Shown here: piece by piece, positions 7,018 to 18,405 of the stretch
How positions within the stretch are numbered: the stretch's first letter is position 1
Layout of the letters: every line of letters starts with the position of its first letter
NCBI RefSeq assembly: GCF_004115975.1
Contig: NZ_SDDZ01000008.1
Location: 1-64,000 of the forward strand
Reading direction: 5' to 3'
Length of the DNA: 64,000 nt
Source of the DNA: Gelidibacter gilvus
GTDB lineage: Bacteria > Bacteroidota > Bacteroidia > Flavobacteriales > Flavobacteriaceae
Program-made: the position numbers and the translations under genes
The notes under the pieces: model-generated
The model's input: only the letters and a program-made list of their open reading frames with translations
The model's database searches: none
Told to the model about the DNA's origin: nothing

Positions 7018-8221
7018 CTCCATACACTATCCATACATTATCCATGGAGTATCTATGGAGTATCTATGGATTGGATCCGTCCAAAAACAGCCACTAAAAT
7101 ATCGAATATTGAAGGCTGAACATCGAATATCGAAGTAGGTCCATTTTTGCCCATATTTTGTGAAAGTTGAAATTGCCTGCCCGTCCATAGCTTTAGCGAA
7201 GGCGGGTAGCATTTGCGGAGGGGGGAAAATGAACTTAAACTTGAACTTGAACTTGAACTTGAACTTGAACTTGAAAGAGTTTGACTTTGAATGTTAAATT
7301 CGGGACCTTGAAGATGTCTATCGTGTATGTAGGGAGTATCTATGGATTGGATCCTTCCAAAAACAACCATTAAAGTATCGAATATTGAAGGCTGAACATC
7401 GAATATCGAAGTAGGTCCATTTTAGTCCATATTTTGTGAAGTTGATATTGCCTGCCCGTCCGCCTGCCCATCCATAGCTTTAGCGAAGACGGGCAGCATT
7501 TGCGGAGGTGGGGGAAAATGAAAATGAAAATGAAAATGAACTTGAACTTGAAAGAGTTTGACTTTGAATGTTAAATTCGGAATCTTGAAGATGTCTATGG
7601 TGTATGTAGGGAGTATCTAGGGAGTATGTATGGAGTATCTATGGATTGGATCCGTCCAAAAACGACCATTAAAGTATCCAATATTGAAGGCTGAACATCG
7701 ACTATCGAAGTAGGTCCATTTTTGCCCATATTTTGTGAAGTTGAAATTGCCTGCCCGTCCGCTGCCCGTCCATAGCTTTAGCGAAGGCGGGAAAATGAAC
7801 TTGAACTTGAACTTGAAAGAGTTTGACTTTGAATGTTAAATTCGGAATCTTGAAGATGTCTATGGTGTATGTAGGGAATATGTAGGGAGTTTCTCTGGAT
7901 GAGACCTGTACAAAAATAACCATTAAAATATCGAATATTGAAGGCTTAATATCGAATATCGAAGTAGGTCCATTTTTGCCCATATTTTGTGAAGTTGAAA
8001 TTGACTTACCATCCGACTGCCCGACCATAGCTTTAGCGAAGGTGGGTAGCATTTGCGGAGGGGGGAAAATGAACTTGAACTTGAACTTGAACTTGAAAGA
8101 GTTTGACTTTGAATGTTAAATTCGGAATCTTGAAGATGTCTATGGTGTATGTAGGGAGTAAGTAGGGAGTATATCTGGATTGGATCCGTCCAAAAACAAC
8201 CATTAATGTATCGAATATTGA

Positions 8222-8568
8222 TTTCAAAGTGGAGCTTTTAGGGAAATGTAATCCTTTAATGATAATAACTCCTAGCTTGCTTGAGTGTTTTTCGTTTACT
8301 CCATTTTCAAAGCCGAGCTTTAAGAGATAACCAATCCCTCTTTCCCAAATCACTTTTCTTCAAGTTTTTAAGCGAATTCTCCTGATTTTCACTTCTAATG
8401 CATCGATAAGAACGTGTTGTAATATAACTTCATGTTCTTTAATTAAATATTTCTGAAAGTTGATAAACCTTAGTTGTTGTGGCTTTATAAAGAAATAATG
8501 AAGTCAAAAAGTTATGGGCTTTTCCTTTGGGCAAAATTGTTGGTGGAAAACACCAATAATGGCAGAAA
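8222..8568 (+). mobile_element. ~348-bp hairpin-ended element, copy 3, inside family B array
   Basis: A 347-base block of family-A-type sequence interrupts a family-B unit. It starts with ttcaaagtggagctttt and ends with the same hairpin (8537-8559) and ggcagaaa as copies 1 and 2. It is bounded by a 14-base direct repeat: gtatcgaatattga at 8208-8221 and gtatcgattattga at 8569-8582, with one mismatch. That looks like a target-site duplication of the host repeat. There is no coding capacity, so if mobile it must depend on enzymes encoded elsewhere. Confidence 0.55.
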
Positions 8569-9301
8569 GTATCGATTATTGAAGGCTGAACATCTAATAT
8601 CGAAGTAAGGTGCATTTTTGTCCATATTTTGTGAAGTTGAAATTGCCCGTCCGTCCGACTGTCCGTCCATAGCTTTAGCGAAGGAGGGAAAATGAACTTG
8701 AACTTGAAAGAGTTTGACTTTGAATGTTAAATTCGGAATCTTGAAGATGTCTATGGTGTATGTAGGGAGTAAGTAGGGAGTATCTCTGGATTGGATCCGT
8801 CCAAAAACAACCATTAAAGTACCGAATATTGAAGGCTGAACATTGAATATCGAAGTAGGTCCTCTTTTGTCCATATTATGTGAAGTTGAAATTACCTGCT
8901 CGTCCGACTGCCCGTCCATAGCTTTAGCGAAGCTGGGTAGCATTTGCGGAGGCGGGAACTTGAAAGCGTTAGCCTTTGAGTTTTAAGTTCGGGACCTTGA
9001 AGATGTCTATCGTGTATGTAGGGAGTATCCAGGGAGTATCCATGGAGTATCTCTGGATTGGACCCGTCCAAAAACGACCATTAAAATAGCGAATATTGAA
9101 GGCTGAACATCGAATATCGAAGTAGGTCCGTTTTTGTCCATATTTTGTGAAGTTGAAATTGACTGCCCATCCGCTTGCCTGTCCATAGTTTTAGCGAAGA
9201 CGGGTAGCATTTGCGGAGGGGGAAAATGAAAATGAACTTGAACTTGAACTTGAAAGAGTTTGACTTTGAATGTTAAATTCGGAATCTTGAAGAGGTCTAT
9301 G

Positions 9302-9369
9302 GTGTATGTAGGGAGTATCTAGGGAGTATCTAGGGAGTATCTAGGGAGTATGTAGGGAGTATCTATGAA
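9302..9369. repeat. 11-bp tandem microrepeat (gggagtatcta)
   Basis: The longest run of the 11-base motif in the array, about five consecutive copies. Other units hold one to three copies, so copy number varies between units. Confidence 0.8.
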
Positions 9370-10255
9370 TGGGACCCGTCCAAAAACAACCATTAAAGTA
9401 TCGCATATTGAAGGCTGAACATCGAATATCGAAGTCGGTCCGTTTTTGTCCATATTTTGTGAAGTTGAAATTGACTGCCCATCCGCTTGCCTGTCCATAG
9501 TTTTAGCGAAGACGGGTAGCATTTGCGGAGGGGGAAAATGAAAATGAAAATGAACTTGAACTTGAACTTGAACTTGAAAGAGTTTGACTTTGAATGTTAA
9601 ATTCGGAATTTTGAAGATGACTATGGTGTATGTAGGGAGTAAGTAGGGAGTATCTCTGGATTGGACCTTTCCAAAAACAACCATTAAAGTATCGAATATT
9701 GAAGGCTGAACATCGAATATCGAAGTTGGTCCGTTTTAGTCCATATTTTGTGAAGTTGATATTGCCTGCTTGTCCGACTGCCCGTCCATAGCTTTCGCGA
9801 AGGCGGGTAGCATTTGCGGAGGTGGGGGAAAATGAAAATGAAAATGAACTTGAACTTGAACTTGAAAGAGTTTGACTTTGAATGTTAAATTCGGAATCTT
9901 GAAGAGGTCTATGGTGTATGTAGGGAGTATCTAGGGAGTATGTAGGGGTATCTATGAATGGGACCCGTCCAAAAACAACCATTAAAGTATCGCATATTGA
10001 AGGCTGAACATCGACTATCGAAGTAGGTTCATTTTAGTCCATATTTTGTGAAGTTGAAATTGCCTCCCCGTCCGCCTGCCCGTCCATAGCTTTAGCGAAG
10101 GCGGGTAGCATTTGCGGAGGGGGAAAATGAACTTGAACTTGAACTTGAACTTGAACTTGAACTTGAAAGAGTTTGACTTTGAATGTTAAATTCGGAATCT
10201 TGAGGATGTCTATGGTGAATGTAGGGAGTAAGTAGGGGGTATCTAAGGAGGAGAT

Positions 10256-10598
10256 ACGCTATACCTATTTTGTGTGACCCGTCCTAAAATAGCTATACAG
10301 ATCTATAAATAAATCTTGGTCTAGTGTACCAATAAATTTATTTAACCTTTTATGAGTCAGTATGTTTGAGAAATAGGCAATAAATGCCAATATTATTCAG
10401 AATCTTTTATACGGCTTATGCCGATGCAGATCAAGGCTGAGAGGTTTTGGATAGGACTTCCAGCTTCTGATCATTGAAACATTCATAAACTCTCCAAGAC
10501 TATATTATATATTCTAGTTTTATGAAATATAAGACATCCTAAAGAAGCTGCTAAAATTTAGGTCTGCAGGCAATTAGATAAGTATTGAAATGTAGAAT
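10256..10598. other. Gene-free stretch after the repeat array
   Basis: About 340 bases of unique AT-rich sequence between the array and the outer-membrane protein gene. I see no reading frame, RNA gene or clear promoter in it. Confidence 0.5.
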
Positions 10599-11168
10599 TT
10601 ACAGACGGAACACGACTTGCAACACGTGTTGCCAGTGATTGTTTGCGTATTCTCGGTCATTTGCATTTGCCGCGAATTTTCCGGTAGTTTGAAGGCGTAA
10701 GGCTATTTTTCGATTAAGCCAATACTGAACGCCACCTGAGAGGTTTGCAGAGGCATTTAATTCACTCATATAAAATATACCGATACCTGCACTAGCATAG
10801 ACATCAAGGGATTCTAATTTAAAAAGATAGTCTCCAAAATACCATTTTAAATTGCTGTTTGTGGAAAAGTATGTTAGATTTTCACTTGGATAGCCATCAT
10901 TTAAATATTTTCCTGCTTTAAAACCATTTAGACTTAAATCTTGTTCCAAAGCGAATTCTTCTGTCCATTGGCGTTCAAGGGCGATAGCAAGTGGAAATGT
11001 AAAACCATAATCACCCAAGTCTTTAACAGGATTTCGTGATCCTAAGTTGCCGACAGCGTTCACACCAACACTAACTTTCCAATCTTTATCAAAAGCTCGG
11101 AATCTTTGAGCATTAACGGTAGTATATCCTAAAACGGAAATAAACAAACAAATCATCAACTTTCTCAT
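10599..11168 (-). CDS. Outer-membrane beta-barrel protein
   Basis: A 189-residue exported protein. A Sec signal peptide covers residues 1-20 (cleavage after VNA, before QRF). The mature part alternates short strands rich in aromatic and small residues with loops (LNLKWYFGDYLF-like strands, SAGIGIFYMSEL), as in small 8-stranded barrels of the OmpA/OmpX type. It ends in VVFRL, close to the usual aromatic C-terminal strand. It lies 72 bases downstream of the nucleotidyltransferase gene on the same strand and may belong to that operon. Whether it has anything to do with the peptide gene at 13501-13665 is unknown. Confidence 0.75.
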   Translation of the reverse strand: MRKLMICLFISVLGYTTVNAQRFRAFDKDWKVSVGVNAVGNLGSRNPVKDLGDYGFTFPLAIALERQWTEEFALEQDLSLNGFKAGKYLNDGYPSENLTYFSTNSNLKWYFGDYLFKLESLDVYASAGIGIFYMSELNASANLSGGVQYWLNRKIALRLQTTGKFAANANDREYANNHWQHVLQVVFRL

Positions 11169-11240
11169 AAAAAAAAACTTTGAGCAAAAATACTCCTTTA
11201 CTTCTAAACTACAAAGCTAATTTGTTGTGTTTTTGAAAGA

Positions 11241-12284
11241 TTATCTTTTCCTAATTGATATTTTGTTTTTTAAAATGTGGGTTCTGTAACTTTTATTGAC
11301 CATAAGCAATTTTAGTCGCTCCAAAAAAGCAGTGATAAATGTTAAAGTTTTTTGAGTGAGCCATCCTAGCCTAGGATGCTTTGTTTTAAAACAAAAATAA
11401 GTTTTCAATAGCCTAGAATAGCTGCTAGTCTTGAAAGGTTGAAGTTCTGAAAAGAATATGCTTGATAATTTCAAGAAAGACTGTGATTGTTTTATGTTGG
11501 AGAGAACTTGTTGTAATTCAACATTATCTTGCAGCCCTAATGCTAAGCAATCATAAATGGTCTTTAATTTTATATATCCAAAAAAGTGAGCGTTATCGTT
11601 AATTTGTGTGGTAAAAATAGCGATCCGAATGGAATCTTCAGTGGAAGCAACATTTATACCATCGATTTTCTGTTTGTTTTTGAGCAATACATTAGGATCC
11701 AAGAGCGCTCTGTACTTATGCACTAAAACCTCACTATGCAATTCGATGGCGCCTAGTTTATTAGGGTCTATTTGTCGTGCTAAATGGCGATAGTTTTTTG
11801 TTTCGTAATTGAACGAGACATTTTCAGTATAGCCTTTGTGTTCCAGAAGATTAAAAGCTTCATCTATTTGCGAAGGAGCAATCAAAATGTCTATATCTCC
11901 AATCATGCGTTCCCCTATATCTTTAAAAGTCCCTCCTGCTATTAGTGCAATTCCCTTAATAAAAACATGATCTATTTGTGCATGATTCAATACCTCTGAG
12001 ATAGCACGTGCTTCTTTTAAAAGTTTTTCATTTCTATTGCGATTAATGGCTGTGAGCTCTTCTAAATACTCATCTAAATCTGTTGGAATGTAAGGCAAAA
12101 GATTCTTTGCCTTGAGTTGGCAATAGAGCGCTGGTAACATTAAATGTTGACTGGCAATGATTACAATATGCTCCCAATTGAGCTTGGTCGCTCTAATTTT
12201 TGAGGTTAACTGGGCTTCATTATTCTTGAAACTCAGGATCTCAGCAATCCATTGTAATGTTTGATAAGTTGAACTTTTCTCCAA
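11241..12284 (-). CDS. Nucleotidyltransferase family protein (PF14907 type)
   Basis: A 347-residue protein of the uncharacterised nucleotidyltransferase family NTP_transf_5. The active-site region shows FIKGIALIAGG at 108-118 and then RMIGDIDILI at 126-135. The pair D130/D132 is the metal-binding D-x-D of this fold. The N-terminal 100 residues are helical. Members of this family occur in lasso-peptide and other RiPP clusters next to HPr-kinase-like proteins. Here the gene follows such a kinase by 53 bases. The start is a TTG, since an in-frame TAA lies four codons upstream (12296-12298) and the next ATG would cut into the helical domain. A peptide or protein substrate is inferred, not shown. 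Confidence 0.82.
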   Translation of the reverse strand: MEKSSTYQTLQWIAEILSFKNNEAQLTSKIRATKLNWEHIVIIASQHLMLPALYCQLKAKNLLPYIPTDLDEYLEELTAINRNRNEKLLKEARAISEVLNHAQIDHVFIKGIALIAGGTFKDIGERMIGDIDILIAPSQIDEAFNLLEHKGYTENVSFNYETKNYRHLARQIDPNKLGAIELHSEVLVHKYRALLDPNVLLKNKQKIDGINVASTEDSIRIAIFTTQINDNAHFFGYIKLKTIYDCLALGLQDNVELQQVLSNIKQSQSFLKLSSIFFSELQPFKTSSYSRLLKTYFCFKTKHPRLGWLTQKTLTFITAFLERLKLLMVNKSYRTHILKNKISIRKR

Positions 12285-12337
12285 GGTCGTTAGTTAGTCA
12301 CCTTCAAATGTAATTAACACAAATGATATAGCGATAA

Positions 12338-13480
12338 TTATGAGTCAAATAACTCAGAAAATTTTGAAACCGCAAAGGCATTATCAGCATAGGTGAGCTC
12401 ATAACAGCAAAGACCTTTAAGCCAATCTAAAAAAAGTTTAGAATTTGATCCCAATGGCGAGAGCCATGACTCAGGGATTAATGTTTCTAATATTTTTTCA
12501 ATACCGATTTCCTTCATTTCTGATGTATTAGCATTAGCATCATAATTGACATACACAATCTTTTTACAAGGAAAATGTGATTTTGTTTGCCCAAAACCAT
12601 TGATGGGAGGAATGTACTTGATCGTTACATTTTTTGAATTACTCTTGTATAAAGGGAATTCATTAAAGTTTGGAAATAAAGGTTCCAAGACACTAAATGC
12701 TCCTTTTTTAACAGAGATGCCAGATGGGAAACGATATGCTTCGCAATCTTCTGCCAATAAAGGGGTGAAATCATCTGCCAAAACATCAATGCCATTGGCC
12801 ATCAACACAGCAGAGAGGGTGCTTTTCCCATTCCCCGAATCGCCAATGATCATGATGGCTTCTTTGTCATTGCACACCGTAGATGCGTGAAACGTGGCAA
12901 TCCAATCAGCTTCGTTTTTATGGTAAAGCGTATTGATGAGCTGTAGTGCGAATTGGCCGGTTAACAAATGGTATTCTGATACAGGATAATGGCCAATATA
13001 CCTCTTATTTATAAATAAATAAAGATGATTCTCCTTCTCAAAGATATCAAATACGGTGGATGACATGTCCTCTTTCAATACTGCGGCATGCGACCATTGT
13101 GGATGAATTAAGTTTTGAATGTCAATAGAACCATAATTCACGGTGATTGACGTGTTACCAAACCTATAATTCTTTTTAAAGTCCGTCTTTTTTATGTAAA
13201 CAGTACTGGATTTATTTGAGGTATCGCTTTTTGAAGAGGTGTTTACCTCTTTTAGTAATTCATTGATCTCAGCGTAGTAAGTATTTGAGTTGCGGTTTGA
13301 AATATTTATAAATGATTTTAATTGTTTATTAAAATCATATTCACTTTCAGAGGCAAAATAAACATCCAATAGTACCTTGAGTGCTTTGGAAATAACAATA
13401 TATTGATTGGAAGCCTCAAACCACAAAACCCAACTGTCTGATAGTTGGGTAGAATTTGTTGCGAAAAAGTTGTTTTTCAA
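12338..13480 (-). CDS. HPr-kinase-like protein with possible PqqD/RRE-like N-terminus
   Basis: A 380-residue protein. The C-terminal part is a HprK-type kinase: H198 in ATFHASTV, Walker A GDSGNGKST at 213-221, and the catalytic-aspartate motif LADDFTPL at 235-242. Residues 15-80 (VLWFEASNQYIVISKALKVL, then a helix with ELLKEV) resemble the strand-helix pattern of PqqD-like peptide-binding domains; this is my reading, not a database result. True HPr kinases regulate sugar transport, but here the neighbours are a 54-residue secreted-type peptide (stop 20 bases upstream) and a nucleotidyltransferase, so a peptide kinase is more likely. The start is TTG, four codons after an in-frame TAG. Confidence 0.82.
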   Translation of the reverse strand: MKNNFFATNSTQLSDSWVLWFEASNQYIVISKALKVLLDVYFASESEYDFNKQLKSFINISNRNSNTYYAEINELLKEVNTSSKSDTSNKSSTVYIKKTDFKKNYRFGNTSITVNYGSIDIQNLIHPQWSHAAVLKEDMSSTVFDIFEKENHLYLFINKRYIGHYPVSEYHLLTGQFALQLINTLYHKNEADWIATFHASTVCNDKEAIMIIGDSGNGKSTLSAVLMANGIDVLADDFTPLLAEDCEAYRFPSGISVKKGAFSVLEPLFPNFNEFPLYKSNSKNVTIKYIPPINGFGQTKSHFPCKKIVYVNYDANANTSEMKEIGIEKILETLIPESWLSPLGSNSKLFLDWLKGLCCYELTYADNAFAVSKFSELFDS

Positions 13481-13500
13481 GTCAAAAAGCTATTGTGTAA

Positions 13501-13665
13501 TTATGGAAATGGATCTCCTCCAGTTATAGGAGGTGTTGAATCCTGCTGTGCCTTAGCGGGAGTTAATATAGCAAATGTGCCTATAGCCGTCAGAGCGGCA
13601 TATTTACCCATGCGCTGCAGAGCTTCTTTTCGTGTGATTTCTGTTTTAGGATTTTTCTTTTTCAT
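13501..13665 (-). CDS. 54-residue secreted-type peptide, candidate modified precursor
   Basis: An ATG-started small gene encoding 54 residues. The N-terminus is basic (MKKKNPKTEITRKEALQRMG), followed by a hydrophobic stretch at 22-35 and an AKA-Q cleavage-like site after residue 39. That leaves a 15-residue tail with S43, T44 and T48 and a PPITGGDPFP end. The TRKEALQR segment is loosely twin-arginine-like, with RK in place of RR. A full consensus promoter ends 4 bases before the ATG. It is the first gene of a likely operon with the HprK-like kinase (20-base gap) and the nucleotidyltransferase. I infer a precursor peptide phosphorylated or nucleotidylated on its tail; the product is unknown. 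Confidence 0.72.
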   Translation of the reverse strand: MKKKNPKTEITRKEALQRMGKYAALTAIGTFAILTPAKAQQDSTPPITGGDPFP

Positions 13666-13669
13666 GTTT

Positions 13670-13700
13670 CAAATATATGGTAATTTTATTAATACACAAA
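13670..13700 (-). promoter_or_regulatory. Full Bacteroidota-type promoter of the peptide gene
   Basis: On the minus strand TTTG (13700-13697) and TATATTTG (13677-13670) are separated by 19 bases, matching the Bacteroidota consensus TTG/TTTG-N(17-23)-TAnnTTTG. The -7 box ends 4 bases before the ATG at 13665, so transcription should start within a few bases of the start codon. The mRNA would then be leaderless or nearly so. Confidence 0.7.
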
Positions 13701-13730: not shown

Positions 13731-16001
13731 TTATTGATTAATCTGTATTTTCTTTATTTTAGAACCTGTTGTATTGTTTATTTTTACAATATAAATTCCT
13801 GAAGACAAGCCGCTAACATCAAATCGGTTTGTTGTTTCATTGTTGCTGAAGACAGCTGTTTGCAATAAACGTCCATTCAAATCATAAACTTCTAATCTGG
13901 AGTTTTCAGAGACCTGACCTTTCACTATAATATGTCCTGAATTGTATGGATTGTAAATTTGTAGATTATCAAAATGAGAACTTTCCAAATTTAGTGTGCT
14001 GTTTGTGAATCTTAATGAGAATCTTTTTGATCCTGAAAGATTGGTGTCTGGTGTGAAAACGTAATCACCAGTAGTAAGAAGTATAGAGGTGTTCGTTATG
14101 TTATCCTCAAAATAAACGTCAACCTCCCTAGGTAGTGGTAGAGGATACGGAGTATATATGCCACTTATCGTTAATTGCTCGCCTTGATTGGCTTTAATAC
14201 CAATAGGGACAATTACCTCAGAGTCTAATATGCTATAAGGTAAAGTTTGTAAAAGTAACTGAAGATTACGATTGTCTTTGTCTTCAACTAATTTGGAATA
14301 TATCGAAAAAGTAGGGTTTCCTATTAGTTTTGAATCGTAGCCAGGATCATGATCTAGGGTGCCGTAAATGTTGAAATAGATGTCGGTGTGATAAGATTTT
14401 GAGCCACTTGCAATCCTGATGCGTATGCTCGCTTCGTCCTCTTCTGCTGTACTTCTATTTGGGATAAAATCATCGCTCTCTCCAGGTTCTCTTAAGGTTG
14501 GGTCAAAGGTTATAGTACCTCCGGTAATTTTTGAAAGTACGTAGAAGCCTTGCCCAGGAGCTATCAAATGGTTAGAATTGGACAAGTTTACGACGTCCCA
14601 AATATCAGGGCTACCTCCAGCATACCCATAAATACCTATACCGTTATCATCAATTTCATTTAAATTGTTTGAAAGAAATTGTCTCGTGTTTATATAAGAA
14701 CTATAAGGATTTCCAATGAGGTTCCATTGTGCAAATTCGTTGGAAGTATTTAATATTGGAATACTTACCGCATTTGTATTTACGGTTCCAGTAAACGTAA
14801 ATAAACCACCAATACCTGTTGAAGACGCTCTATAGCCTGAGGCAGATGTTAAAATGGTATTTGCGTTGTTGATGGTATCATAATTTTCATATTTTCCAGT
14901 AGTCTTGTTAAATGGAGCAAAAGCCTTTTGAGCATTGTTAATAGGATTACTCAGCAAGTTACTGTTAGCAGCTGCAAAAGCACCAAATGTCTGTCCGGCA
15001 AGTGGTGCAGAGATTAAATCATTGCGACCTATTGGTGAATTCCCATTAACATACCTGCTATAATGTATCGTACCTATGCCATTCACTGATGTAGGAATTA
15101 AACTTGGAAACTTCGTTGAGTTAGATACTAAAGTGACCAAACCGTTATTGGTAAAAGTGCCATCTACCGTCAAGGCGCTAGCTGGACCAATATAAGCGGT
15201 GCCTCCTGCCACAAGCTCTATATCTCCTGTAACTGTGCGTTGATATTCATCATCGATGACAATATGTGCGTATTTTCCGCCAGCAAATAGTTCCTCGAAG
15301 GCGTTTTCGTTATTAAAAGTATGTAAAATTGGGGTATTTGTATGTTGTGTTGGTATAACTGTATTGGTATTGATGCCAATACCACCGAAGTAACCTGAGC
15401 TAGTATTGCCATTAAAAGTAATTGGATATCCAACATCTCCATAGCCGAAAAACCCACTATTATTAGACATAAATATACTGAAATAAATGCCTTTTGCATG
15501 GTCTATTTTAGATTTTGGTATGGCGATTTCTAATGCTGTTGAAGAAGTGTATTGTATGAAACTTGATAAATTTCCAGACGTTTGGTCTGTCCATTTTGTT
15601 CCATTGTTTCTGTGGTGGAAGGATTGACCGCCAACATTATTTCTTATTGCAATGCTGTGATCAGCCCTGTAAGGAAGAGTAGGTATTCTACCATCGCGAG
15701 GGAATCCTGTAGGAGAACCCTTGCCCTTTAAATCTGGTGTAGGATCTGTATCAAGATATAATGTAAAATGGTCATAAGCATCAAAGTTTTCTCCGTTTGT
15801 TCTAAATGCACCAAAATACATCGTAGTCTCGTCAAATGTGACGTAATAATCAACGTTATCCCCGCCAGTTATCTTTTCTACGGCATTAAAATCATTTGGA
15901 TTACCAGTAAACGTAATGGTATGATGAGGTTGCGAATAAGAGATGTTAAAAGTTATAAGAAGGATAGTTAAAAGCATCCAGCGCTTGTAATTTTTTGCCA
16001 T
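13731..16001 (-). CDS. T9SS-exported protein with type A sorting domain (paralogue 1)
   Basis: A 756-residue secreted protein. The signal peptide is residues 1-23 (cut before QPHHT). A calcium-binding-like or DOMON-like segment follows, with DHFTLYLDTDPTPDLKG. The middle region is shared with the neighbouring gene (SAPLAGQTF, WNLIGNPYSSYI, GQGFYVLSK). The last ~75 residues form the type A C-terminal sorting domain (LEVYDLNGRLLQ, SGLSSGIYIVKI, KIKKIQINQ). Such domains direct transport through the outer membrane by the T9SS and attachment to, or release from, the surface. No enzyme motif was seen; an adhesive or structural role is plausible. It sits upstream of the peptide operon on the same strand, but that operon has its own promoter. 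Confidence 0.88.
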   Translation of the reverse strand: MAKNYKRWMLLTILLITFNISYSQPHHTITFTGNPNDFNAVEKITGGDNVDYYVTFDETTMYFGAFRTNGENFDAYDHFTLYLDTDPTPDLKGKGSPTGFPRDGRIPTLPYRADHSIAIRNNVGGQSFHHRNNGTKWTDQTSGNLSSFIQYTSSTALEIAIPKSKIDHAKGIYFSIFMSNNSGFFGYGDVGYPITFNGNTSSGYFGGIGINTNTVIPTQHTNTPILHTFNNENAFEELFAGGKYAHIVIDDEYQRTVTGDIELVAGGTAYIGPASALTVDGTFTNNGLVTLVSNSTKFPSLIPTSVNGIGTIHYSRYVNGNSPIGRNDLISAPLAGQTFGAFAAANSNLLSNPINNAQKAFAPFNKTTGKYENYDTINNANTILTSASGYRASSTGIGGLFTFTGTVNTNAVSIPILNTSNEFAQWNLIGNPYSSYINTRQFLSNNLNEIDDNGIGIYGYAGGSPDIWDVVNLSNSNHLIAPGQGFYVLSKITGGTITFDPTLREPGESDDFIPNRSTAEEDEASIRIRIASGSKSYHTDIYFNIYGTLDHDPGYDSKLIGNPTFSIYSKLVEDKDNRNLQLLLQTLPYSILDSEVIVPIGIKANQGEQLTISGIYTPYPLPLPREVDVYFEDNITNTSILLTTGDYVFTPDTNLSGSKRFSLRFTNSTLNLESSHFDNLQIYNPYNSGHIIVKGQVSENSRLEVYDLNGRLLQTAVFSNNETTNRFDVSGLSSGIYIVKINNTTGSKIKKIQINQ

Positions 16002-16159: not shown

Positions 16160-18382
16160 TTAATATACGAAAATATTCTTAATCTTCTCCATCGATCCTG
16201 ATCGTAATTTTACAAGATACATCCCGCGAGATACTATAGATAAGTCCACTTTATTGTTTTCGATTTGGGCATCAAGCTGACTGTTGATCAAACGTCGCCC
16301 TTGGGTATCATAAACCGTGATGATTGTATCTGGCTTTAATTTCCCCTCGATGTGTAGGGTTTGGGACCCGTTGGTGGTGAAGATTTGAAGATCGTTCAGA
16401 CCAGTGTCGCCGTAAGTCAAGGTAGCCTTAACCAAATGTAAAAAGAAACGTCCAGAATCTGGCTCTTCAGAATTTGCGATGAATTGATAATCGGCCAAGT
16501 TCAAATGGGTAAAGGTCTCTGTCCATTTATCCTCCAAGTACACTTCGGTCTCTTCTGGTAGAATGGCATCGGCAATACTTATGGTGACGCGTTGCCCTTT
16601 AGAAGCATTAAGTCCTATTGGAATGCTAAGCTCGTGGGCAAGATCAGCATAGGCAAAAGATTGGATGGCCATATCAAGAACCTTATTATTTTCTACCAAA
16701 TGTGAAAAGATTGCAAAATCTGGAGCTTTTCCACCATAGATACCGGCATCATAACCTGGATCCAGACCTTTTGTTGAGTGTTCATTAAAATAAAACTCGG
16801 TGTGATAATTATGCACGCCGCTTTCAAGTTTCAGCCTTAAATAGCCTACTTTATCTTCCACTGGTGATTTGTCCACACTAAATTCGTTCGGTTTACCAGC
16901 GGTACGCATCGTTGGGTTGAAGCTAACTAGTCCGCCACCATTTTTGGAGGCTACCATAAAGCCTTGTCCAGGGGTTAATTCTGCATTGGGATATAGGGTA
17001 AGATAGGCGAGGTTGTAAATGCTCCAGCCCTGTGAAACATCGCCATTGAAAGTGTACATCCCGGATGAAACTGGTGCAAATTGTGCATTATTTACGGCTA
17101 AAAAATCGGACACTTTGATGTAGGAAGGATACGGATTCCCGATAAGGTTCCATTCGGTCAAGGCGGGTCCCGAGTTTGAAATTTCTTTATGCACTGCGCT
17201 GGTGTTCACGGTGCCTTTATAGGTGAAACTGCCATTGTTGGTAGCCGCTGCTTTGTATCCTGTTGCTGGTGTGAACACGGCGTTATCTTTCTTGGAATAG
17301 TTGGTATATGCCGCTTTTCCTTTTTCAAATGGACCATATAAAAACGGCGTATTGGTCGTGTTGGTCACAATATTGGGGTTTCTTGCTCTAAAATCATTAA
17401 AGTTCTCCCCGGTTACCGGGGCTGAAACAAGCAGTTCATTGCCAGAACCTCCCAGCAAGGTTTTGGTTTTCATTTGACGTTGGTACTTGACAGTTCCTGT
17501 AACATTACCAGTGACAATCAAGCTTGAATACTCATCTTCCCCAGAATGTAAAGTGATATTGCTTGCGGTGGATACATCGCCGTTCACAGTAATGGCACCT
17601 GTTTTTTGAACCATAACCCCGGCTTCCGGATTCACGATTAAATTTTTGACCTGTACGTGGTTCTTTTCCTTATAAATGCCATTAAAAATTATGACGTTCT
17701 CTCCGGCAGTTTTTGCGTTAGGGGCGTGCGGTATCCAAGTACCATCAGTATATTGTAAACCATCGTAGATAATCTTGCCTGCAAGACGAATTCCGGTATT
17801 TTCCAATCCAAGCACCGTGCCCAGTCCGCCCTCTATGTCCAAGGTTCCCAATGGTCCCAACATGCCAATATTGGCTGCAAATCCATAAAGTCTGAAAATT
17901 ATGGTATCTCCAGGAGCAGATCTAAGTGCTGTTTCAATGGTAGGGGACTGTCCAGAATTACTTACTTTGTCATGGGCATAGATGTCAGATTTAAAATCGT
18001 CTAAACTGGTTCTTATTCTTATTTTGGCGGGGCCATTCCCAGTAAAAAAATGAGAAAACCCATCGGGATCTCTGTCAAAGTTAATTTGTAATTCAGTGAT
18101 GTTTATAATATAGCCGGGGGCGGCGGTTACAGACCATTCAATATAGTCTCTAAGATCAATACTCTTATCGGTAGTCCAATTGCCACTATTAAATGTTAGC
18201 CCACCACTGACGGTCAGTCCCGGACCTCGGGTTAATGGTGCAGCAGTTATATTTGGAGCGGTCGCAACTTCTGGTGTTTTAGTTCCGGAAAATGCGGCAA
18301 TATCCTGACCGAAAAATGGTAATGCCATACATGTTGACAAGCATATTGTCATCATTTGTTTCATCAGAATTCTATTAGCCAT
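16160..18382 (-). CDS. T9SS-exported protein with type A sorting domain (paralogue 2)
   Basis: A 740-residue secreted protein. I start it at the ATG at 18382, because an upstream in-frame TTG (18400) overlaps a TAATTTTG promoter box. The signal peptide runs to about residue 25. The N-terminal part (GLTFNSGNWTTDKSIDLRDY, IEWSVTAAPGY) resembles a lectin-like or PEP-type surface domain. The central region parallels the neighbour (SAPVTGENFNDF, TEWNLIGNPYPSYI, GQGFMVASK). The C-terminus is a type A sorting domain (VYDTQGRRLINS, SRGMYLVKL, EKIKNIFVY). No catalytic residues were recognised. The gene opens the minus-strand half of the window, back to back with upxY across ~500 bases. Confidence 0.86.
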   Translation of the reverse strand: MANRILMKQMMTICLSTCMALPFFGQDIAAFSGTKTPEVATAPNITAAPLTRGPGLTVSGGLTFNSGNWTTDKSIDLRDYIEWSVTAAPGYIINITELQINFDRDPDGFSHFFTGNGPAKIRIRTSLDDFKSDIYAHDKVSNSGQSPTIETALRSAPGDTIIFRLYGFAANIGMLGPLGTLDIEGGLGTVLGLENTGIRLAGKIIYDGLQYTDGTWIPHAPNAKTAGENVIIFNGIYKEKNHVQVKNLIVNPEAGVMVQKTGAITVNGDVSTASNITLHSGEDEYSSLIVTGNVTGTVKYQRQMKTKTLLGGSGNELLVSAPVTGENFNDFRARNPNIVTNTTNTPFLYGPFEKGKAAYTNYSKKDNAVFTPATGYKAAATNNGSFTYKGTVNTSAVHKEISNSGPALTEWNLIGNPYPSYIKVSDFLAVNNAQFAPVSSGMYTFNGDVSQGWSIYNLAYLTLYPNAELTPGQGFMVASKNGGGLVSFNPTMRTAGKPNEFSVDKSPVEDKVGYLRLKLESGVHNYHTEFYFNEHSTKGLDPGYDAGIYGGKAPDFAIFSHLVENNKVLDMAIQSFAYADLAHELSIPIGLNASKGQRVTISIADAILPEETEVYLEDKWTETFTHLNLADYQFIANSEEPDSGRFFLHLVKATLTYGDTGLNDLQIFTTNGSQTLHIEGKLKPDTIITVYDTQGRRLINSQLDAQIENNKVDLSIVSRGMYLVKLRSGSMEKIKNIFVY

Positions 18383-18397
18383 CCACTGAGTTTTGAG

Positions 18398-18405
18398 CAA
18401 AATTA
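18398..18405 (-). promoter_or_regulatory. TAnnTTTG -7 box of the second T9SS gene
   Basis: TAATTTTG on the minus strand ends 15 bases before the ATG at 18382. No TTG lies at the -33 distance. It also argues against the TTG at 18400 as the start codon. Confidence 0.4.

Follow-up and report, generated by a model that had tools for sequence, protein, structure and literature searches.

The SynChlorMet cassette comprises a small peptide together with an HprK-like protein, ScmC (TIGR04249), and HprK-related kinase A (TIGR04352) has PqqD-like and nucleotidyltransferase (PF14907) partners. HprK homologues phosphorylate the C-terminal serine of lasso precursors, and in the case of pseudomycoidin the phosphate then receives one or two hexoses from a nucleotidyltransferase, as described in passages of two reviews (PMC8498205, PMC9266682). 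Fusions of the recognition element (RRE) of ribosomally synthesised and post-translationally modified peptides (RiPPs) with glycosyltransferases, and other new fusions, are reported in passages of the RRE-Finder study (PMC7470986). Here, a locus of Gelidibacter gilvus (Flavobacteriaceae) was examined within a stretch of 64,000 nucleotides (contig NZ_SDDZ01000008.1, positions 1 to 64,000; hereafter the window), which encodes a small precursor peptide, an HprK-like kinase, a PF14907 nucleotidyltransferase-like enzyme and a barrel-like secreted protein. An original prediction, made from the sequence alone, had read these genes as a peptide-modification operon in which the tail of the peptide is phosphorylated and/or nucleotidylated. 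Gene order, co-occurrence of the genes across genomes, conserved catalytic and substrate positions, and predicted RRE-like and kinase folds partly support that reading, which was right in substance, and the locus probably encodes a RiPP-type system with an RRE-fused kinase, an elaborating PF14907 enzyme and an exported peptide, so far found in one Bacteroidota family (f1, that of G. gilvus).

Examination of the open reading frame (ORF) list and translations of the window revealed that all four genes lie at 10599-13700 and run in the same direction, as had been described, and that the strand is the minus strand (Table 1). The peptide likewise proved to have 54 residues, a signal-like N-terminus and a 15-residue tail, QQDSTPPITGGDPFP, following A39. 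In an alignment of 32 peptides, M1, R12, E14, A15, G20, A24, T26, A27, L34, P36 and S43 are invariant, Ser43 being the sole invariant residue after the leader, while E14 is replaced by Q or K in six peptides outside this alignment. When 56 peptides were placed by script, anchored on the proline of the leader, leader positions were found to be mostly fixed or nearly so, with ten identical in 54-56 of the 56, and the seventh residue past that proline was serine in 55 and tyrosine in one. The peptide of L128 could not be placed by script but has the serine when read by eye (56 of 57 chromosomal peptides), as have all six further peptides of genome G749, which are part of no model, so that the serine is present in 62 of 63 assessable chromosomal peptides; the count leaves out L079, which ends early, L137, a weak remnant, and L141, in which the first half is broken. 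The sole exception, the tyrosine, is in G348, a genome without a detected kinase. The cores themselves vary, typical ones being SSPPDPGGNPFD or SPEAPGSGF. Since an AxA-type site precedes the serine, the latter would be close to the start of the mature peptide as presumed here, and the target of modification is most likely this one serine rather than the whole tail that had been proposed. No convincing match to the peptide was obtained in Pfam or NCBIfam; it is short, with a conserved leader and a variable core, and is encoded with an enzyme, as is characteristic of precursors of RRE-dependent RiPPs. A Tat signal was considered and rejected, as consecutive arginines are not conserved: only the first arginine is invariant, whereas the residue after it is usually K but can be N or T, and in the peptides of viral contigs described below is A, Q, V, K or R.

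The kinase scores below the threshold of every library family. The best match is TIGR04352 (HprK_rel_A), at 54.7 of 200 bits, with Hpr_kinase_C (16.3 bits against a cut-off of 33.3), the HPr kinase/phosphorylase family TIGR00679 (16.8 of 240 bits) and TIGR04249 (13.1 of 125 bits) further behind; its exact start is uncertain because of the TTG start codon. An AlphaFold2 model of the whole protein has a predicted local distance difference test score (pLDDT) of 93, and in this predicted structure residues 88-380 resemble PEPCK (best Z 13.8, 5.2 Å, 277 residues) and residues 192-380 resemble HprK 1ko7 (Z 11.5, 2.9 Å, 127 residues). The GDSGNGKST and LADDF motifs noted originally are both present. 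Moreover, all 36 homologues aligned share H198, G213, S215, G216, G218, K219, D236 and D237, and profile alignment places the histidine, GDSGxGKS and ADD in line with those of the solved HprK 1ko7, indicating that the catalytic residues, the loss of which would have spoken against the prediction, are retained. The hallmarks of HPr kinases, namely the P-loop, the histidine, the Asp pair and the HprK/PEPCK fold, are thus all found in the alignment and predicted fold.

The N-terminal domain of the kinase, which is missing from the original prediction, reads in its predicted structure as an RRE (residues 3-84), the leader-binding domain of RiPP enzymes. Modelled alone it has an E-E-E-H-H-H topology with a pLDDT of 90. 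The top 11 PDB chains returned by Foldseek comprise TbiB1, lasso B1 with leader peptides, two sactipeptide-synthase entries, ThcOx and TigE, and no unrelated fold appears ahead of rank 12; sactipeptide synthases, ThcOx and TigE are presumed here to carry RREs. A structural aligner gave Z 8.5 (2.7 Å, 77 residues) against the lasso B1-leader complex 6jx3_B, 7.9 and 7.7 against TbiB1, 7.4 and 7.2 against the sactipeptide-synthase entries, and 5.8 against TigE. When the domain was compared locally by hhalign with 30 PqqD-like sequences taken from elsewhere in the phylum, the probability was 59% (E 9e-5). Separately, three genomes of another family of the phylum (G463, G468 and G513) have stand-alone PqqD genes about 1 kb or less from HprK-like P-loop matches, an arrangement that is possibly a two-gene form of the same combination of RRE and HprK.

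The enzyme encoded next belongs to PF14907 (NTP_transf_5), as predicted, with 98.5 bits against a cut-off of 31.2, and K110, G111, R126, D130 and D132 are invariant in an alignment of 35 homologues. The nucleotidylation that had been attributed to it is less secure: the enzyme is present and co-occurs with the peptide and kinase, but the group it adds may be a sugar and not a nucleotide. The last gene encodes a putatively secreted, barrel-like protein of 189 residues, although its matches to outer membrane protein (OMP) families are weak (PagL, 14.8 of 23 bits; OMP_myx_plus, 19.3 of 60 bits). In a scan that covered operon proteins and not the remainder of the genome, neither a lasso leader peptidase nor an Asn-synthetase-like cyclase was found, and no radical S-adenosylmethionine (SAM) match was obtained among the same proteins.

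The conservation of the cassette was examined next at 40 kinase loci, comprising stretches of 40 genomes plus the window, less L086 (G311), a non-member. The kinase was detected in 21 of 148 genomes, that of G. gilvus included (E ≤ 0.001), among them all eight of the same genus (G001-G008) and two from other families of the order, in which the match was to the P-loop (G128) or to a partial kinase (G144). In 397 genomes of the family there are 37 kinase matches at E ≤ 1e-6, G311 matching at the P-loop only. The peptide lies upstream of the kinase on the same strand in 33 of the 40 loci; three of the seven others (L071, L073, L078) extend upstream by less than 80 nt, and for six of the seven, G055 being the exception, a peptide is present elsewhere in the genome. 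The PF14907 gene is directly 3' of the kinase in 34 loci, sits between peptide and kinase in L065, and cannot be judged in L079, which is too short downstream; the barrel-like gene follows in 19 of the 40. The neighbourhood is therefore largely constant, as the original prediction would have it, and the cassette is not due to chance, since different genera have the genes in this same order of peptide, kinase and nucleotidyltransferase. The peptide is not tied to the operon, several genomes holding unlinked copies beside other genes of the type IX secretion system (T9SS). Among individual loci, degenerate kinase remnants lie beside an intact cassette and extra peptide copies (L062 5959-6571 in G006; G002:C16:11322-11537), which are signs of cassette duplication and decay, and in L069 (G047) the kinase is divided between two reading frames, with apparently intact hits for the peptide, the nucleotidyltransferase and T9SS. 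Two genomes that are small and incomplete (L072, L094) have a gene of the NDP-sugar pyrophosphorylase family (PF00483) after the kinase, with a DUF3089 gene preceding and the PF14907 gene elsewhere; these calls were made with Pfam on L072 and by BLAST cluster for L094.

Co-occurrence across the family corroborated the link between the peptide and the two enzymes. The peptide profile gave 43 matches (E ≤ 0.01) in the 397 family genomes. With the weak peptide matches of G201, G420 and G437 (E 0.003-0.009) and the G311 kinase match dropped, 35 genomes have both peptide and kinase, five the peptide only, one the kinase only and 356 neither (Fisher p 1.2e-43, a value that is merely descriptive because genomes are not independent); with the weak matches kept the counts are 35, 8, 2 and 352 (p 4.9e-40). 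Counted by genus, 24 of 237 have both, with one exception each way (p 1.3e-30). The kinase-only genome is G055, in which the kinase is at a contig end, and, from tables read by eye, all 30 genomes at least 90% complete that have the kinase also hold the peptide. Several genomes have peptides away from the kinase, G385 having six scattered peptides and one kinase; the co-occurrence holds with and without linkage, and chance clustering was rejected on that basis. A match to the PF14907 enzyme is absent from all five peptide-only genomes, two of which (G360, G380) have interrupted peptide frames, a third being G348 with its tyrosine. Of the kinase genomes without an adjacent PF14907 copy, three have the gene unlinked (G062, G215, G389), and the incomplete genomes G074 and G217 gave no match to it.

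Beyond the family the system is scarce. A draw of 345 genomes from the phylum gave six peptide matches, of which five are strong, all in the family of G. gilvus, and the sixth has E 0.005; full-length kinases are in the same five genomes, the other 53 of 58 kinase matches being partial and mostly around the P-loop. A wide distribution was rejected on this evidence. The peptide was also absent from all 68 relatives searched (59 from other families of the order and nine from the same family, G144 included) with a query that does find matches in the 397-genome set. Plasmids gave no peptide match, and nine plasmid records, from Rhizobium, Sinorhizobium, Ensifer, Methylosinus and Methylobacterium, have partial kinase matches covering at most 61%. 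A scan of genome contigs with the bare P-loop pattern gave one unrelated P-loop match.

The original prediction had taken the four genes to form a very small system. The cassette stands, but a T9SS-sorted surface protein also belongs with it and had been missed: its gene lies upstream of the peptide gene on the same strand, separated by 65 nt. With a T9SS-tail profile trained on proteins of the same loci, such a gene was found upstream within 4 kb of the kinase at 32 of 33 peptide-bearing kinase loci (the exception being L096), and for 51 of the 58 distinct peptides (53 of 60 when two duplicated loci are counted) one lies no more than 2.5 kb upstream in the same orientation. Many of these genes overlap the peptide or lie within 20 nt of it, even where the kinase is not near. 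Of the seven peptides without one, three are at contig ends (L140, L143, L144), two are among T9SS-like genes by eye (L127, L141), and two, in L096 and L129, have other neighbours; the six peptides of G749 have T9SS-tail hits upstream, once with another peptide between. The independent Pfam model PF18962, applied to seven partner or paralogous proteins including two from the window, scored four above its cut-off and two below, with no match to the seventh. Chance adjacency would be rare, since the G. gilvus genome has 40 T9SS-tail matches in 4.63 Mb. The 746-residue paralogue encoded further upstream is 37% identical to the 756-residue neighbour over residues 271-753 of the latter, and five proteins of this genome share the T9SS module, whereas one peptide was found there, indicating that the cargo type is wider than the peptide. 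From the side of the peptide the partnership is steady, and we infer its meaning in the model given below.

The same leader is also encoded on 12 viral contigs from IMG/VR (L226-L243), located in two scans. The serine is kept in all 11 assessable peptides (nine by script and two by sight; that of L243 is broken), whereas the cores are unlike those of the hosts, being mostly Gly/His/Asn-rich with some basic-ended. A scan of ten proteins from four of these contigs found a terminase large subunit and exonuclease VIII on L231, a DNA helicase on L227, a tail protein and a metallophosphoesterase on L226 and a ParB-like protein on L229, and L236-L239 have a terminase-like ORF by eye; these eight contigs are taken as phages, and the rest as viral by the label of the collection. 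Some of the peptides adjoin lipoprotein-like or terminase-like ORFs. The kinase, PF14907, barrel and T9SS-tail queries gave no hit on the viral stretches examined, no kinase was confirmed among 600 P-loop pattern matches on viral contigs, and the one viral-contig peptide tried had no match in 50,697 records of named phages. Conservation of leader and serine on both the host and viral sides fits recognition by an enzyme better than a role of the host core, and the presence of precursor mimics on viral contigs points to some importance of the modified peptide at the surface of infected cells.

A model for leader binding, phosphorylation, a second modification, export and surface partnership can be proposed from these observations. 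In the cytoplasm, the RRE-like domain of the kinase would bind the conserved leader, and the HprK-like domain would phosphorylate the conserved serine just past it, Ser43. The PF14907 enzyme would then elaborate the phosphate; a sugar, as in pseudomycoidin, is the most likely addition, and a nucleotide the alternative. The leader may double as the export signal, the peptide crossing the inner membrane and being cut at the AxA-type site, such that a short, modified Pro/Gly-rich peptide is left in the envelope, where it could work with the adjacently encoded T9SS surface protein; the barrel-like protein may help in some species. A more speculative extension, considered improbable, is that the modified peptide is an acceptor or cap for the surface protein. 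PorU would use the free N-terminal amine of the peptide instead of anionic lipopolysaccharide (A-LPS), so that the cargo ends in a phosphoglycosyl-peptide, and orphan phage precursors would be decorated by the host RRE-kinase, remodelling the surface and, for example, excluding rival phages.

Several observations weigh against the proposed system. Foldseek E-values for the N-terminal domain are weak (0.013 at best, to 0.49), PqqD itself (3g2b) gives a Z of only 4.7, hhalign run globally gives a probability of 10%, and the domain is not called PqqD by sequence, comparisons with Pfam, PDB sequences and, in the G. gilvus genome, PF05402 having returned nothing. Four loci (L072, L076, L093, L094) lack a peptide next to the kinase even though their upstream sequence is complete, their genomes carrying one elsewhere; two peptide-only genomes, G202 (84% complete) and G340 (82% complete), have intact peptides; and G217 has the kinase, yet its peptide is shortened by a stop. 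The passage of a phospho- or glycosyl-peptide through the export machinery is an assumption of the model. In addition, the leader has the n-region, hydrophobic stretch and AxA site of a normal signal peptide, such that part of its conservation could serve export alone. Taken further, this likeness would make the peptide an unmodified small protein of an ordinary kind, exported or anchored in the membrane, whose gene happens to stand in one operon with that of a regulatory kinase. That explanation is very improbable, given that unlinked peptides still track the kinase, that the ten near-identical leader positions go beyond what export is expected to need, that the N-terminal domain of the kinase has an RRE-like predicted fold, and that the serine is kept in viral-contig peptides with other cores.

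A further point against the system as described is G144 (L020; family f15, 72% complete), which has a partial kinase (113 bits) at the start of a contig followed by a PF14907-type gene (276 bits), without a peptide match, indicating that the two enzymes occur together outside the family as well. Such a pair in a genome with no detected peptide would be in keeping with both enzymes acting on the T9SS surface protein itself, or on a sugar or lipid that serves to attach it, with the peptide as an RRE-docking activator or adaptor. The frequent adjacency of peptide and T9SS-tail genes is also consistent with this scheme, as are the pyrophosphorylase family genes after the kinase in L072 and L094 and the presence, within about 7 kb in 15 of the 40 loci, of opposite-strand genes from the BLAST clusters of the window's polysaccharide genes. 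It is nevertheless unlikely: the peptide is tracked by the kinase but not by the cargo type, of which G. gilvus has five members to its one peptide, an adaptor has no need of an invariant serine in its core, and on the viral stretches examined the peptide is encoded in the absence of any T9SS tail. Less easily set aside, though still doubtful, is that the RRE-kinase only phosphorylates, while the PF14907 protein acts elsewhere or adds a nucleotide and not a sugar. The name of PF14907 suggests as much, and one review notes that true nucleotidylation by PsmN, with later glycosylation by the host, had not been excluded. Co-occurrence of the three genes argues instead for a joint pathway, and hexoses are the addition reported in the only experimental precedent found. 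The preferred reading thus remains an RRE-fused kinase acting with the PF14907 enzyme on an exported peptide.

Table 1. Positions of the cassette, its sub-features and the upstream surface protein genes in the window.
Feature	Position	Strand	Remarks
Barrel-like secreted protein, optional last gene	10599..11168	-	189 aa; weak OMP matches
PF14907 nucleotidyltransferase-like enzyme	11241..12284	-	347 aa, TTG start; 98.5 bits
HprK-like kinase with N-terminal RRE-like domain	12338..13480	-	380 aa; AlphaFold2 pLDDT 93
RRE-like (PqqD-like) domain, about residues 1-85 of kinase	13226..13480	-	predicted fold
Walker A GDSGNGKST, kinase residues 213-221	12818..12844	-	homologue alignment
LADDF with Asp pair, kinase residues 234-238	12767..12781	-	homologue alignment
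Precursor peptide	13501..13665	-	54 aa ORF
Peptide leader, residues 1-39, signal-peptide-like, AxA-type site	13549..13665	-	window sequence ITRKEALQRMGKYAALTAIGTFAILTPAKA
Variable core, peptide residues 40-54	13504..13548	-	QQDSTPPITGGDPFP, 15 residues after A39
Ser43 codon, proposed phosphorylation site	13537..13539	-	conserved in peptide alignment
T9SS-sorted surface protein, PF18962 tail	13731..16001	-	756 aa; Por_Secre_tail 44.7 bits, cut-off 27
Paralogous T9SS-sorted protein without own peptide	16160..18400	-	746 aa; Por_Secre_tail 30.5 bits

The remainder of the window includes a large cluster at 18883-63523, polysaccharide-related by eye and divergent from the cassette, with a gene for an UpxY-family antiterminator first. 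Between the cassette and a gene for a cyclic nucleotide (cNMP)-binding regulator, positions 7028-10290 hold approximately ten diverged direct repeats of about 300 bp with no clear gene. Promoter-like sites number 26, against 31.0 in shuffled sequence, and terminator-like sites 10, against 5.8, neither count being informative.

If the proposal is correct, the locus represents a RiPP class whose defining feature is an RRE-fused protein kinase and which needs very few genes, in which a secretion signal may double as leader and which is in steady partnership with T9SS surface proteins. A natural substrate would also become visible for the HprK-like/PF14907 enzyme pair, together with a specific candidate residue, making the chemistry directly testable. 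Amongst described systems, TIGR04352 is the best match to the kinase but far under its cut-off, and here the RRE-like domain is fused and a candidate substrate peptide is visible. ScmC shares the pairing of a small peptide with an HprK-like protein, from which the present locus differs in its low TIGR04249 score and in the lack of a radical SAM match among the operon proteins scanned. The neighbouring gene encodes a T9SS type A cargo protein (PF18962, PorU sortase), here with a small peptide partner, of which there is none in the passages searched of a review of T9SS effectors (PMC10202324). The fusions of the RRE-Finder study likewise join an RRE to a modifying enzyme, which here is an HprK-like kinase, the word "kinase" being absent from the main text of that paper (PMC7470986); among the matches listed for the open-access literature, there is no report of the peptide family or of an RRE-kinase fusion. 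The closest likeness in chemistry is to pseudomycoidin and paeninodin, in which, according to the reviews, an HprK-homologous kinase (PsmK/PadeK) acts on a precursor serine and a nucleotidyltransferase-like protein (PsmN) then adds hexose to the phosphate, a sequence of events proposed here from the genes. The present system differs from these in having operon proteins that include neither a lasso protease nor a cyclase, in carrying its RRE fused to the kinase as opposed to in a separate B1 protein, in the position of the candidate serine, which is at the start of the core rather than at the C-terminus, and in combining a signal-peptide-like leader with a T9SS partner gene.

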